The notes beneath the pieces were generated by a model. It ran no database searches, was not told where the DNA came from, and worked only from the letters and a program-made list of their open reading frames with translations. Made by a program: the position numbers and the translations under genes. 64,000 nt of DNA from Arthrobacter sp. FB24 (GTDB lineage: Bacteria > Actinomycetota > Actinomycetes > Actinomycetales > Micrococcaceae): positions 620,001 through 684,000 of the forward strand of contig NC_008541.1 in assembly GCF_000196235.1 (NCBI RefSeq), given 5' to 3'. Position 1 is the stretch's first letter; every line of letters begins with the position of its first letter. Positions 7,630 through 44,655 of this stretch are shown piece by piece.

Positions 7630-7700
7630 GACGCTCTCTCACTTTCTTGGGGAAAGTGAGGGAGCGTTGCCGCATTTGCTGCCGGAGGTGAGGGAGCGTC
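7630..7700. repeat. palindromic repeat, family 1, copy A
   Basis: ACGCTCTCTCACTTTCTT (7631-7648) is followed by the imperfect inverted copy AAAGTGAGGGAGCGT (7653-7667), and a further single arm GGTGAGGGAGCGTC lies at 7687-7700. It fills the space between the convergent RamB-like gene and the TAXI gene, where it may act as a bidirectional terminator. The same modules occur at four other loci in the window. Confidence 0.75.
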
Positions 7701-7705
7701 TTGCT

Positions 7706-8731
7706 TTACCCGTGCAGTTCCCGGTAGGCGGCAGCGGCTGCGGGGTGCAACGGCAGGCCGGCCGTGTTGATCAGCGATTCCGGGCTCAGGAACTGGACTC
7801 CCATGCTGGAGCGGGGGATCAGTTCCTCGGCGTGGTCCACCAGCAGTTCGACGGTTCTCTTCACTGTCCGCTCATCCAGGTCACTGCGGCACAGGAGCAG
7901 ATTGGCCACACCCACTGCCCAGACAGCCGGAATGCCCTCGTAGGCGCCTTCCGGGATCAGGACCCGGTCGTAGAACGCGCCGTACTTGGTCCGCAGTTTG
8001 GGCAGCAGCGGGGAGAGGTCCAGGAATCCGAGCCCGACCTCATGGTGGGTGGCGGCAATGGCGGCCGTAGGCACCCCGCCGGACCAGAACAGCGCGTCCA
8101 CCGACCCGTCCTGCAGCGCCGCAAGCCCCGCGTTGAGTCCGAGGTTCAGGACGGTGACCGTCTTGCCGCCATTGGCGGCGGGCGCGGCGCCCACAGCCAC
8201 GGAAGCCAGCCCGGCGGCCTCCAGCAGGCGCGGGGTGGTAAGCGACGTCCCTGAACCGGGCTCGCCGACAGCCACGGTCCGGCCAGCCAGTTCCGTGAGG
8301 GTCCGGATGCCGCCAGCCCTCCGGACGACGCAGTGGACGTAGTTTTCGTACACCCTTCCAAGGGCCGCGATTCCCGCGTCCGACGGGCCGCCCGCCGGCA
8401 TCTTCTGTGCCGCGGCATCCGCGAGTGCGACGGCGAACGTCGCTTGCCCCGTCAGGAGCTGCCGCAGGTTGTCGAGGCTGCCACCGGTGGTCAGGGCTGA
8501 AGCGCTGCCGGCCACGCCATGGCGCTGGATGGACTCCGCCAGCAGCGTTGCAAATTCAAGGTAGAAGCCTCCCGGCTCACCCCCTGCCACGGTGACGGTG
8601 CCTGGCTTGTCCTCGGCAGTGCATGCGGTGAGGGCCGGGATGAGCAGTCCGGCCAGGCCAGCGGCCAGCCCGGCCTTGAGGGCGGCCCTCCGTGGCGGCA
8701 GGCTTCCAGCCAGGTCAGTCATGCCGGTCAT
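7706..8731 (-). CDS. TAXI-family solute-binding lipoprotein
   Basis: A 341-residue exported protein. A twin-arginine-containing hydrophobic leader ends in the lipobox LTAC with C37 as the lipidated cysteine, then a TRAP-associated extracytoplasmic (TAXI) binding domain begins at GTVTVAGGEPGGFYLEFATL. TAXI proteins normally deliver glutamate or other carboxylates to TRAP membrane subunits, but no TRAP permease gene is nearby. Instead it is the last gene after a response regulator and a sensor kinase and faces a dicarboxylate MFS transporter. A plausible role is as an accessory ligand sensor for the kinase. The start is set by GGAGG about 7 nt before the ATG, inside the second copy of a tandem duplication. 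Confidence 0.88.
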   Translation of the reverse strand: MTGMTDLAGSLPPRRAALKAGLAAGLAGLLIPALTACTAEDKPGTVTVAGGEPGGFYLEFATLLAESIQRHGVAGSASALTTGGSLDNLRQLLTGQATFAVALADAAAQKMPAGGPSDAGIAALGRVYENYVHCVVRRAGGIRTLTELAGRTVAVGEPGSGTSLTTPRLLEAAGLASVAVGAAPAANGGKTVTVLNLGLNAGLAALQDGSVDALFWSGGVPTAAIAATHHEVGLGFLDLSPLLPKLRTKYGAFYDRVLIPEGAYEGIPAVWAVGVANLLLCRSDLDERTVKRTVELLVDHAEELIPRSSMGVQFLSPESLINTAGLPLHPAAAAAYRELHG

Positions 8732-8780
8732 GAAAGGGCCTCCGGCCCTGTCATGCCGGTCATGAAAGGGCCTCCGGCCC
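8718..8780. repeat. 32-bp tandem duplication across a stop/start junction
   Basis: Two 31-nt identical copies (8718-8748 and 8750-8780), period 32, span the end of the kinase gene and the start of the TAXI gene. Each copy carries GGAGG, an ATG and the bases that form the kinase stop. In the kinase-proximal copy the stop and an ATG overlap as ATGA, which looks like the ancestral coupled junction. The duplication now leaves an 11-codon mini-ORF between kinase and TAXI gene. Confidence 0.85.
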
Positions 8781-12590: not shown

Positions 12591-12688
12591 CCGGACGCTC
12601 TCTCAGATCCTGCGGTAAATCCCGGGACGCTCTCTCACTTTCTTAGGGAAAGTGAGAGAGCGTCCCGGGTTTTCTTGCCTTAAGTGAG
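12591..12688. repeat. palindromic repeat, family 1, copy B (split by IS110 element)
   Basis: A single arm GGACGCTCTCTCA (12593-12605) is followed by a perfect hairpin with 21-nt arms at 12621-12641 and 12649-12669 (CCCGGGACGCTCTCTCACTT and complement). The third arm begins TTAAGTGAG at 12680-12688 and is then interrupted; its missing end AGAGCGTTC resumes at 14271. Intact copies such as 18267-18285 show the uninterrupted form AAGTGAGAGAGCGTC. Confidence 0.85.
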
Positions 12689-12976
12689 TTTCTCAGGGGC
12701 GCTTTCGCTCCGCCGTGGGGGCCGAAAATGTACTGCTGTGGGGAACCTTTGCGGTGTCGGGGCTGCCGGAGCAGACTGAAGAGTGTGTTCCGGTCGACCC
12801 CGGTCTCTCTTTAGTGCCGGTGAGCCTGTAAGTGAGTTTGGTGGTGGAGGGCGCAGCTTTTGTCCGCGGGACCGTGGAATGTTGCCGTTGAGCACGAATG
12901 TCAGATTTGTTGTTTATCCGCCTTCCCCGGGACACAGACGCCATCTGTTGGACTGTTCGAGGAAGGGTGAGCTCTC
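12689..12976 (+). ncRNA. candidate bridge RNA region of the IS110 element
   Basis: In the IS110 group the non-coding 5' end encodes a bridge RNA whose loops pair with target and donor DNA. Here 12829-12839 (TAAGTGAGTTT) repeats 11 nt of the left junction including the target half and AG core, and 12898-12904 (ATGTCAG) repeats the right end of the element plus AG core (14264-14270). The target-like match lies 5' of the donor-like match, the order known from IS621. A CTCTCT run at 12805-12810 is complementary to the right target half. Loop folding was not computed, so exact RNA ends are unknown. Confidence 0.5.
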
Positions 12977-14221
12977 ATGGAGGTCATTCACCCGCGCTGC
13001 GCGGGTGTCGATATTTCAAAGAAGGACGCGAAGGTCTGTGTCCGCATCCAGGGCCGCGGCGGCCGGTCCACCACATCCACCATCACGACCTGGGGTTCGA
13101 TGACGGGGCAGATCCTGGGGCTAAAGGAACACCTCCTGGACGAGCACGTGGATCTGGTGGTCATGGAGGCCACCGGTGATTACTGGCGCCCCTTCTACTA
13201 CCTGCTTGAAGACGACGGACTGAACATCATCCTGGTCAATGCCCATGACGCCAGGAACGTCCCGGGCCGCAAAACCGACGTTTCCGACGCTGCCTGGCTT
13301 GCCGACCTGGGCGCCCACGGGCTGGTCCGGGCCTCCTTCGTGCCCCCGCCTCCGATCCGTGAACTGCGGGACCTGACCCGGGCCCGGACCATCATCACTC
13401 AGGAACGGACCCGGGAAATCCAGCGCCTGGAGAAACTCCTCGAGGACGCCTGCATCAAACTATCCTCGGTAGCTTCGAACATCACCGGGGTCTCCGGACG
13501 ACTGATCCTCCAAGCACTCATCGACGGGCAGACCGACCCCGCGGCCCTGGCAGAGATGGCCCAACGCCGGCTGCGGTCCAAAATCCCTGAACTCACCCAA
13601 GCCCTCAACGGCCGGTTCACCGAACACCACCGCTACATGACCGGACTCTATCTGCACCGGATTGATGCCCACACCGCCGATATCAACGACCTCAGCGCCA
13701 GGATCGAGGCGGCGATGGAGCCCTTTCGTTTCGCCCGGGAGCTCCTCGTGAGCATCCCGGGGTTCAGCACCACCATCGCGGAAATCTTCATCGCCGAAAC
13801 CGGCGCCGACATGAGCGCATTCGCCACCGCAGGGCAGCTGGCATCCTGGGCCGGTACTTCCCCGGGATCCAACGAATCCGCCGGACGGGTCAAATCCACC
13901 AAAACACGGCCCGGCAACCGGTACCTCAAAGGTGCCCTGGGCATCGCTGCTCTGTCCTGCGCGAAATCGAAGAACACCTACCTCGGTGCCAGATACCGGC
14001 GCATTGCCTCCCGGCGCGGACCCGCCAAAGCCCTCGTCGCCGTCGAACACTCCATCCTCACCGCAGCGTGGCACATGCTCACCACCGGCGAACTCTACAA
14101 CGACCCCGGCGCCGACTACTTCACCCGGCAGACACCCGTTAAAACCATGGCCCGGGCCGTCAGACAACTAGAATCCCTCGGCTATCAAGTCATTCTCGAA
14201 CCCCTGCAACAGACCGGATAA
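12977..14221 (+). CDS. IS110-family transposase (bridge-RNA-guided recombinase type)
   Basis: A 414-residue intact transposase. The N-terminal RuvC-like domain has the DEDD residues D12 (GVDISK), E64 (VVMEATGDYW), D101 and D104 (KTDVSDAAWLADL), at almost the same spacing as in IS621. A coiled helical region (about 130-250) leads to the C-terminal domain with SIPGFSTTIAE at 259-269 and a serine-bearing segment WAGTSPGSNESAG (291-303) that should hold the catalytic serine. No frameshift or missing motif is seen, so the element is probably active or recently active. GAAGGG lies upstream of the ATG at ribosome-binding distance. Confidence 0.95.
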   Translation: MEVIHPRCAGVDISKKDAKVCVRIQGRGGRSTTSTITTWGSMTGQILGLKEHLLDEHVDLVVMEATGDYWRPFYYLLEDDGLNIILVNAHDARNVPGRKTDVSDAAWLADLGAHGLVRASFVPPPPIRELRDLTRARTIITQERTREIQRLEKLLEDACIKLSSVASNITGVSGRLILQALIDGQTDPAALAEMAQRRLRSKIPELTQALNGRFTEHHRYMTGLYLHRIDAHTADINDLSARIEAAMEPFRFARELLVSIPGFSTTIAEIFIAETGADMSAFATAGQLASWAGTSPGSNESAGRVKSTKTRPGNRYLKGALGIAALSCAKSKNTYLGARYRRIASRRGPAKALVAVEHSILTAAWHMLTTGELYNDPGADYFTRQTPVKTMARAVRQLESLGYQVILEPLQQTG

Positions 14222-14270
14222 CACCGCTCACCCCACGCACCCCACCGCACTCACCTAATTTTCATGTCAG

Positions 14271-14280
14271 AGAGCGTTCA
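14271..14280. repeat. distal fragment of family-1 repeat copy B
   Basis: AGAGCGTTCA here completes the arm interrupted at 12688. Joining the two flanks restores TAAGTGAGAGAGCGTTC, which matches intact family-1 arms. The remaining 140 bp up to poxB contain no gene; a GGGAG ribosome binding site lies near 14408. Confidence 0.8.
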
Positions 14281-18176: not shown

Positions 18177-18179
18177 CCG

Positions 18180-18285
18180 GACGCTCTCTCAGATCGTGCC
18201 GCTTACAACACGACGCTCTCTCACTTTCTTGAGGAAAGTAAGAGAGCGTCGTGGTTTTTCGCGCTAAAAGTGAGAGAGCGTCCCG
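18180..18285. repeat. palindromic repeat, family 1, copy D
   Basis: A forward arm GACGCTCTCTCA at 18180-18191, a hairpin at 18210-18252 (ACGACGCTCTCTCACTTTC with its inverse, one mismatch), a T-rich spacer and a reverse arm AAAAGTGAGAGAGCGTCCCG at 18266-18285. It fills the gap between the convergent serpin and kinase genes and is the most complete example of the arm-hairpin-arm layout. Confidence 0.8.
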
Positions 18286-18300
18286 AAACGCGGGGACGGG

Positions 18301-22191: not shown

Positions 22192-22233
22192 GCCCCGGCT
22201 CTCCGCGGAGCCTTCGAACCTCAGCACCGCCGG

Positions 22234-22303
22234 TTCGACGGTTCCCTGCCCGCTCGACGCCGGGAAGCGTCTATCCTGCACGGAACCGTCGTAACGGCGA
22301 GGC
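22234..22303. repeat. 70-bp family-2 palindromic repeat, left copy
   Basis: Identical over 70 bp to 23303-23372. Internally it is an imperfect palindrome: CGACGGTTCCCTGC at the left and GCACGGAACCGTCG at the right (one mismatch). It overlaps the 3' end of the DUF559 gene and supplies its TAG stop and about ten C-terminal codons. Confidence 0.9.
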
Positions 22304-23233: not shown

Positions 23234-23302
23234 GAGACCAAGCTTCCACCGCGCACACGGCACCGCCCAGACATCATCGCGGGTATGTGGACAACAAGCC
23301 GT

Positions 23303-23372
23303 TTCGACGGTTCCCTGCCCGCTCGACGCCGGGAAGCGTCTATCCTGCACGGAACCGTCGTAACGGCGAGGC
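23303..23372. repeat. 70-bp family-2 palindromic repeat, right copy
   Basis: A perfect direct copy of 22234-22303, offset by 1,069 bp. It lies 70 bp upstream of the DUF559 gene start and immediately behind the dienelactone hydrolase gene. A third, diverged copy is at 44569-44634. Confidence 0.9.
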
Positions 23373-42460: not shown

Positions 42461-42587
42461 AACGCTCTCTCACTTCCTGCGGGAAATCTCCAGACCCTCT
42501 CTCACCTGTGAGGGAGGGTCTGGTTTTTGGCGGCCAAAGGTGAGAGAGCGTCCGGGAAATACCGACGAAAGGTGAGAGAGCGTCCTG
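42461..42587. repeat. palindromic repeat, family 1, copy E
   Basis: AACGCTCTCTCACTT at 42461-42475, a hairpin CCAGACCCTCTCTCAC (42490-42505) with its near-inverse to 42523, then two reverse arms at 42536-42552 and 42567-42583 (AAAGGTGAGAGAGCGTC each). The longest copy in the window, with four modules behind ppc. A T-tract follows the hairpin, so it can work as a terminator. Confidence 0.8.
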
Positions 42588-44537: not shown

Positions 44538-44568
44538 CGGTCCATTCTACCGGGGCCCCCTCCACGCC

Positions 44569-44634
44569 GTTTCGACGGTTCCCTGCGTGCCAGACGCTGC
44601 GCGACGTCTAGCCGGCAGGGAACCGTCGATACGG
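44569..44634. repeat. family-2 palindromic repeat, third copy
   Basis: TTTCGACGGTTCCCTGC (44570-44586) and GCAGGGAACCGTCGATACGG (44615-44634) are the ends of the palindrome; the middle differs from the copies at 22 and 23 kb. It lies in the intergenic region upstream of both the RluA gene and the ArsR-type gene. The arms are perfect inverse copies over 14 bp, so this is a better palindrome than the other two. Confidence 0.8.
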
Positions 44635-44655
44635 CCGCCGACGGTAAAAAAATTC

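Follow-up and report, generated by a model that had tools for sequence, protein, structure and literature searches.

Why does an insertion sequence in Arthrobacter sp. FB24 lie exactly within one arm of a palindromic repeat, and what brought it there? The question is raised by an IS110-family element in the window, that is, the whole stretch of 64,000 nucleotides that was analysed. We conclude that the predicted guide RNA of this element very probably aims it at the sequence of the repeat arm, with insertion at an AG core, and that a second IS110 lineage has separately been aimed at the same arm. The ends, copies and empty sites, the co-variation of guides with flanks, and the predicted place and order of the guides rest on comparison of sequences. 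The element, its gene and the two halves of the arm that it splits are as follows.

12687-14270, + strand: IS110-family element, ISArsp3-like, 1584 bp including the AG core at both ends.
12682-12688, + strand: left half of the split arm, AAGTGAG, with the core AG at 12687-12688.
14269-14279, + strand: right half of the split arm, AG-AGAGCGTTC, with the core AG at 14269-14270.
12977-14221, + strand: DEDD transposase (recombinase) of 414 amino acids, with PF01548 and PF02371; NF033542 scores 248 bits (cut-off 140).

Of the four copies of the element in the own genome, which are 100% identical, the large contig (C4) carries three and a 115-kb contig (C2) the fourth. The ends were set at 12687 and 14270 because the identical copies cease to match there; copy lengths and empty sites were also used. 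The left junction reads AAGTG-AG-TTTC(TC), the right junction reads (CA)TGTC-AG-AGAGCG, and the pre-insertion target is AAGTG-AG-AGAGCG, with exactly AG as the core dinucleotide between element and target. The initial annotation had placed the element exactly inside a repeat arm whose two halves rejoin, and had proposed an AG dinucleotide shared by the ends. The first claim is right to the base, and the second agrees with the points at which the four copies stop matching.

Both the DEDD N-terminal domain (PF01548) and the Transposase_20 C-terminal domain (PF02371) are present in the transposase, as in the IS110 family. The protein matches the IS621 structure 8wt6 with E=1.2e-11, and the serine of its NESAG motif aligns with the serine of YESGSS in the IS621 chain, which, from an offset of two, would be S241. 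Non-coding DNA extends for 290 bp 5' of tnp (12687-12976) and for 49 bp 3' of the stop, which fits the IS110 type and not the IS1111 type. Plasmids of Glutamicibacter and Pseudarthrobacter carry copies that are 99.9-100% identical over 99% of the query and that are annotated as ISArsp3 family by NCBI. The name ISArsp3 is absent from the literature searched, and we found there no description of its target or guide.

Two arrangements of copies are recorded here in their own right. At C4:4332000-4337200 (L206) of the own genome, two identical copies, each in a repeat arm of its own, stand head to head with ~634 bp between them, and this intervening piece could conceivably be inverted or excised. 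In the copy of another genome (L205, G058:C1:717900-721700), the transposase gene is broken by ~1.4 kb of other DNA, possibly another IS.

The repeat consists of arms GTGAGAGAGCG that recur every 32 bp. Most of the 30 loci read have them as arrays of minus-strand arms followed by plus-strand arms (-n +n), and the spacing from the last - arm to the first + arm is often 24 bp. Two arrays of the window matter most for what follows.

12596-12662: three unsplit arms of the array that holds the element (- at 12596, - at 12628, + at 12652).
18182-18280, no strand assigned: intact four-arm copy of the repeat, used for comparison.

The element interrupts the last arm of a four-arm -,-,+,+ array that sits between two genes and has the same layout as the intact array at 18182-18280. 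This intact paralogue, taken as 18177-18290, folds as very stable nested hairpins (z=-8.8). Arrays in the window lie at 7632-7698, 12596-12662, 18182-18280 and 42463-42582, and up to seven consecutive arms occur elsewhere in the genome. Allowing at most one mismatch, GTGAGAGAGCG is found 17 times in the window compared with 1.74 expected, one of the 17 (14266) being the right junction itself. At the same threshold, AAGTGAGAGAGCG identifies 119 arms in the genome (exact matches, 61) compared with 1 for the reversed control. Its distribution in the family is patchy, with an exact match in nine of 149 genomes and at least three matches only in four genomes of the own genus. The stretch that the element's guide would read, AAGTGAGAGAG, occurs 74 times in the own genome. 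Among 101 genus genomes it is present in 100, many with one to three occurrences and with a maximum of 144 (G058); the reversed control gives 0-2 in each.

The many copies and the palindromic arrangement are those of a REP or BIME. Because the genome yielded no Y1/RAYT transposase (PF01797, 0 matches; the same profile matches 5 of 14 control genomes), we regard the repeat as REP-like and not as a proven REP, and its spread by a RAYT was rejected on the same ground. For the repeat strings, the titles in the literature searched gave nothing on Arthrobacter or the repeat, and for an Arthrobacter IS110 with a palindromic target they gave only unrelated work. The available part of a RepRanger table names Arthrobacter livingstonensis. 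The window also contains a second palindromic-looking repeat family of ~75 nt (GGTTCGACGGTTCCCTGC...GCACGGAACCGTCG) in three copies (22229-22303, 23298-23372 and 44566-44640) and, at 8718-8780, a perfect 31-nt tandem duplication with a start-to-start spacing of 32.

In IS621, according to the accessible portions of PMC11208160 and PMC11208158, both target guides of the bridge RNA include the core; the left guide has the sequence of the top strand, and the right guide is complementary to that strand. Candidates for the corresponding segments were located in the non-coding region upstream of the transposase gene.

12740-12930, + strand: predicted bridge RNA region, borders approximate (fold z=-2.95).
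12802-12810, + strand: predicted right target guide GGTCTCTCT; its final CT complements the core, and it would pair with AG-AGAG of the top strand.
12829-12836, + strand: predicted left target guide TAAGTGAG, which copies the left target.
12897-12904, + strand: predicted left donor guide AATGTCAG, which matches the right end ATGTCAG (14264-14270).

These predictions were evaluated by comparing guides with flanks in relatives, namely 30 loci from 101 genus genomes and the best 80 of 124 named loci. Among 106 upstream regions, 81 were parsed automatically and three by hand. Of the resulting 84 rows, 26 were dropped (11 duplicates, 12 with weak left ends and three too short or without an end), leaving 58 elements. 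Left ends were chosen by a matrix whose training set was 26 ends picked out visually; these choices are not blind, because the training ends were read with the guide match in view.

Across the 58 elements, 287 of 348 non-core positions are the same in the left guide as in the left flank, whereas 10,000 shuffles give a mean of 163.9 and a maximum of 195, a comparison that is inflated by kinship among the elements. With one row per distinct guide (26), 123 of 156 positions agree, compared with 63 by shuffling (maximum, 84). When the left flank is scanned along the aligned non-coding region, the best place is the left guide (z=14.8; next 6.1). Mismatches at this guide favour wobble pairs of a + strand RNA, by 31 to 3, or by 10 to 1 if position -8 is left out.

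For the right guide the signal is moderate. At positions +1 to +4 of the right flank, 88 of 148 agree (37 rows) compared with 55, and 0 of 10,000 shuffles is as high, a test that shares the inflation by kinship; with one row per distinct guide, the figures are 36.7 of 80 compared with 23.7 (about 0.0002). Scanned in the same way as its reverse complement, the right flank (30 rows) has its best place at 12804 (z 4.6; next 3.2). Wobble direction does not tell the strand here, and some elements have no match at +1 to +4. In the window element the right guide fits only AG-AGAG, and the next three bases do not match. Clear single cases are L058 (TTGGG), L062 (TTGG), and L056 and L057 (ACGG).

The left donor guide occupies the best place for the right ends of 31 elements (z=9.0; next 4.4), and the variant right ends GTGGGAG and GTAAGAG are mirrored by variants at 12897-12904. 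A scan of the non-coding region for a right donor guide gave no convincing place. Segments of the non-coding region thus co-vary with the left target, the right target and the left donor, as is characteristic of a bridge RNA or seekRNA. Close relatives with other guides (transposase 83-85% identical) occupy other sequences. A consensus fold of 19 relatives, in which 98% of cells pair but the energy is low, is provisional and was set aside as evidence. Rfam gave only sub-threshold, microRNA-like matches, which fell on the hairpin and were taken as chance.

Some relatives drew our attention to other kinds of target. L078 and L057, both IS110s with guide GGGCTAG, are both inserted in GACGAAGGAGGGGCTAG-ACGGG. 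With at most one mismatch, GAAGGAGGGGCTAGACGG was found in 18 of 61 genus genomes at 1-6 copies per genome, compared with a total of 3 for the reversed control. Several copies often share a contig within a few kb, and the own 115-kb contig has two (C2:66917 and C2:70248). This sequence may be the end of arrayed mobile units. In four Rhodococcus IS110s (L083, L084, L085 and L086), the left guide CGTGTCAG is similar to the right end found in related IS110s. With left flanks that read TTTCGTATCAG, TTTTCGTGGGAG, TTTTCGTGTCAG and TTTTCGTATCAG, these elements seem to be aimed at other IS ends.

Sites of the element itself were sought by comparing its non-coding region with 206 genus genomes, of which 18 matched. 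In this set, and in that of the second-lineage sisters described below, the flank was picked by guide match and then by the conserved end motif, and the choice is therefore not blind. Among the matches listed, elements with guide TAAGTGAG occupy seven distinct non-plasmid sites (three in the own genome and the others in G077, G262, G298 and G058, that of G262 being on a 153-kb draft contig) and one plasmid site; three matches that escaped automatic parsing (L194, L197 and L201) carry other guides. All seven of the non-plasmid junctions among these matches read AAGTG-AG-AGAG[C/G]G. Further arms lie within 200 bp of six of the seven sites, and the G077 site has none. The plasmid site, GAAGTG-AG-AGGGG (own C2, G011 and G013), is outside the repeat, yet it fits the guide. 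Its left flank is common to plasmids of Glutamicibacter and Pseudarthrobacter, and the exact empty site is present in pASPHE302 (NC_015147). Because this site fits the guide without a repeat, the target appears to be the sequence specified by the guide, which is met most often in the repeat.

An empty counterpart of the window copy was sought through its downstream gene, which was matched in 53 of 61 genomes; 30 loci, the own included, were read. Repeat arms lie upstream of this gene in six of the 29 other loci (L155, L156, L159, L165, L173 and L174). In G059 (L155), the orthologous arm is unsplit, TTTAGTGAGAGAGCGTTCGGCC, with one arm base different, and is preceded by the same MFS gene. In G020 (L156), an intact repeat array is found at the orthologous place, behind the same MFS gene.

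The initial annotation had suggested that the repeat is the natural target of the element, by analogy with other IS110 members that target REPs, and had proposed, as a check, a search of related genomes for the empty site and for further copies in the same arm with the same AG core. The precedent is borne out for IS621 and for ISPpu9, ISPpu10, ISPa11 and ISRm19 in the available parts of PMC11208160 and PMC1525189, and empty sites do exist, as the unsplit arm of G059, the intact array of G020 and the exact plasmid site in pASPHE302. The suggestion itself survives in modified form: the predicted guides and all seven non-plasmid sites, with arm sequence and AG core, agree with it, but the target appears to be the guide's sequence and not the repeat as such, and the plasmid copy lies outside the repeat. 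Copies in unrelated sequence were said to speak against the suggestion. The plasmid copy is technically of this kind, yet GAAGTG-AG-AGGGG fits the guide.

The same arm is used by a second IS110 lineage. L134, an IS110 that is ~50% identical, has the right flank TGAGAGAGCG. A pattern search for flanks of this type over 206 genomes, which is biased in that it demands that flank, gave 13 places in five of the genomes, seven of them in G094; a place in G327 continues as TGAGGGTCTG and is not the arm. The G094 elements have a transposase 48% identical to that of the window element, and their guide is TCATTAAG. All seven have the left flank CATTAAG beside repeat arms, as judged by eye, and the right flank TGAGA[G/C]AGCG. 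An unbiased search of G094 with the whole element returned exactly the seven full copies and two 86% relatives. These two have guide TGATCTAG and are located at CGATCTAG with no arm in view; the same flank appears twice, so they count as one site at most. Guide TCATTAAG also occurs in G013 (three left ends) and G270 (one), with flank GCATTAAG, within repeat arrays. In total, CATTAAG stands at 11 of the 11 left junctions examined for elements that carry TCATTAAG (seven in G094, three in G013 and one in G270).

With guide UCAUUAAG, the second lineage is inserted at CATTA-AG-TGAGAGAGCG, so that its core is the first AG of the arm and lies 4 bp from that of the window element. Its predicted right guide, AGTCACT (ATCACT in G013), precedes the left guide and fits AG-TGA. 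The non-coding region of this lineage matched at least 19 places in 13 of 206 genomes, four with guide TCATTAAG and 15 with other guides. Among the 15 other-guide sisters, 12 have a left end with at most two mismatches to their own guide, followed by the conserved end motif, and none of these 12 has an arm; in the other three, no guide-matching left end was found. A tree of 80 transposases has a 100/100 branch that separates the two repeat-aimed groups, and each of these groups is placed among sisters that carry other guides. The simplest reading of these sequences is that two lineages acquired repeat-aimed guides independently.

In the window element, the predicted right guide (12802-12810) precedes the predicted left guide (12829-12836) in the non-coding region upstream of tnp. 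According to the available text of PMC11208158 and PMC11187229, IS621 and ISEc21 have the left guide and then the right, and IS1111 elements have the reverse. The left guide of the window element is thus not 5' of the right guide, as it is in the IS110-type elements IS621 and ISEc21, and either this order is not a rule of the whole IS110 type or the element represents a separate subgroup. In the clade at ~50% identity, parsing succeeded for 14 of 19 elements, 13 of which contain, upstream, a stretch with at most one mismatch to the left guide, its place being chosen by best match. By position, the right guide of this clade again comes first, a placement that is weakly tested, since the flanks that fit the right-target guides of the clade are too few to count.

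It could be argued that 12802-12810 is no guide, that the true right guide lies 3' of the left as in IS621, and that the order described here is wrong. The moderate co-variation of the right guide and the scarcity of fitting flanks in the distant clade favour this view. However, when the right flank is scanned as its reverse complement along the aligned non-coding region, this stretch scores best, and both the clear cases (L058, L062, L056 and L057) and the match of AGTCACT/ATCACT to AG-TGA in the second lineage argue against it, so we consider an error in the order unlikely.

Another view is that the recombinase protein itself recognises the palindrome or hairpin of the repeat, the match in the non-coding region being incidental. 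The stable nested hairpins of the array (z=-8.8) would suit such recognition, and transposases that recognise palindromic REPs are discussed in the accessible part of PMC1525189. This is nevertheless very improbable, given that the plasmid site fits the guide without any arm nearby, that guide tracks flank over 26 distinct guides, that 83-85% identical relatives with other guides occupy other sequences, and that in G094 one lineage with two guides is found in two kinds of place. Homologous recombination between repeat arrays, or segmental duplication, might instead have carried the copies to the repeats, a view favoured by the many arms in the genome and by the two chromosomal copies found head to head at a distance of ~634 bp. 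It is scarcely credible, since the surroundings differ at each of the seven sites while the junctions coincide base for base, and since the plasmid site is known in its exact empty form. Guide-directed insertion at the arm sequence is the reading that we adopt.

After the model of IS621, the element would excise as a circle joined at AG, the left donor guide of the RNA would read the circle junction, and the recombinase would exchange strands at the AG core, giving insertion in one orientation with no base lost. Transcription of the RNA, its pairing and catalysis we infer by analogy with that system. As described in the accessible portions of PMC11208160 and PMC11208158, IS621 of E. coli resembles the window element in its DEDD recombinase, upstream non-coding region, dinucleotide core and split target guides, and in having a multicopy palindromic repeat (REP) as its target. 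It differs in that the proteins are distant (E=1.2e-11), its core is CT and not AG, and, in the same portions, its left guide (50-58) lies before the right (77-80), whereas the window element has the right before the left.

Other elements share some of these features. ISPpu9, ISPpu10, ISPa11 and ISRm19 are IS110-family elements of which 7/7, 7/7, 6/6 and 4/4 copies, respectively, are REP-associated in the available part of PMC1525189; their REPs are those of Pseudomonas and Sinorhizobium, whereas that of the window element is an actinobacterial repeat of 32-bp period for which no Y1 transposase was found in the genome. In the accessible text of PMC11187229, ISEc11 and ISKpn4 (IS1111 type) have seekRNAs with the right-then-left order of the window element, and ISEc21 (IS110 type) has its non-coding region upstream, as here. 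The window element differs from the IS1111 types and from ISEc21 in joining the IS1111 order to the IS110 non-coding position. In the accessible text of the literature searched, we found no report of a right-then-left order in an upstream-type IS110. ISAar29, which by its name we take to be probably an Arthrobacter IS110, possibly belongs to the group of the window element. In the available part of PMC11208160, it is one of six predicted bridge RNAs of Extended Data Fig. 10, and that figure may already display the right-then-left order. A Kocuria paper describes an IS110, ISKrh6, without giving its target in the part available. REP-targeting IS110s are already known, and the additions made here are an actinobacterial repeat for which no RAYT was found, the convergence of two lineages in two registers, and the guide order.

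More broadly, host repeats probably attract bridge-RNA guides time and again: within a single genus, two IS110 lineages separated by a deep split would independently have taken guides for the arm GCATTAAGTGAGAGAGCG, in two registers 4 bp apart. With the same degree of assurance, a large actinobacterial part of the IS110 type would have the right guide 5' of the left. If this reversed order is true, the path of the RNA over the recombinase must differ from that in IS621, the IS110/IS1111 order rule fails for a large actinobacterial group, and models based on IS621 are not directly transferable to it. IS110 recombinases are under development as programmable DNA-insertion tools, and the elements described here provide a series of natural guide-target pairs outside the described IS621 group, including two unrelated solutions for one target. 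They also provide a natural control, in that sister elements with other guides land elsewhere, even inside one genome. Because the repeat offers dozens of landing sites, a repeat-matching guide would let an element become multicopy, which suggests that acquiring a guide that matches a dispersed repeat may be a route to the multicopy state.
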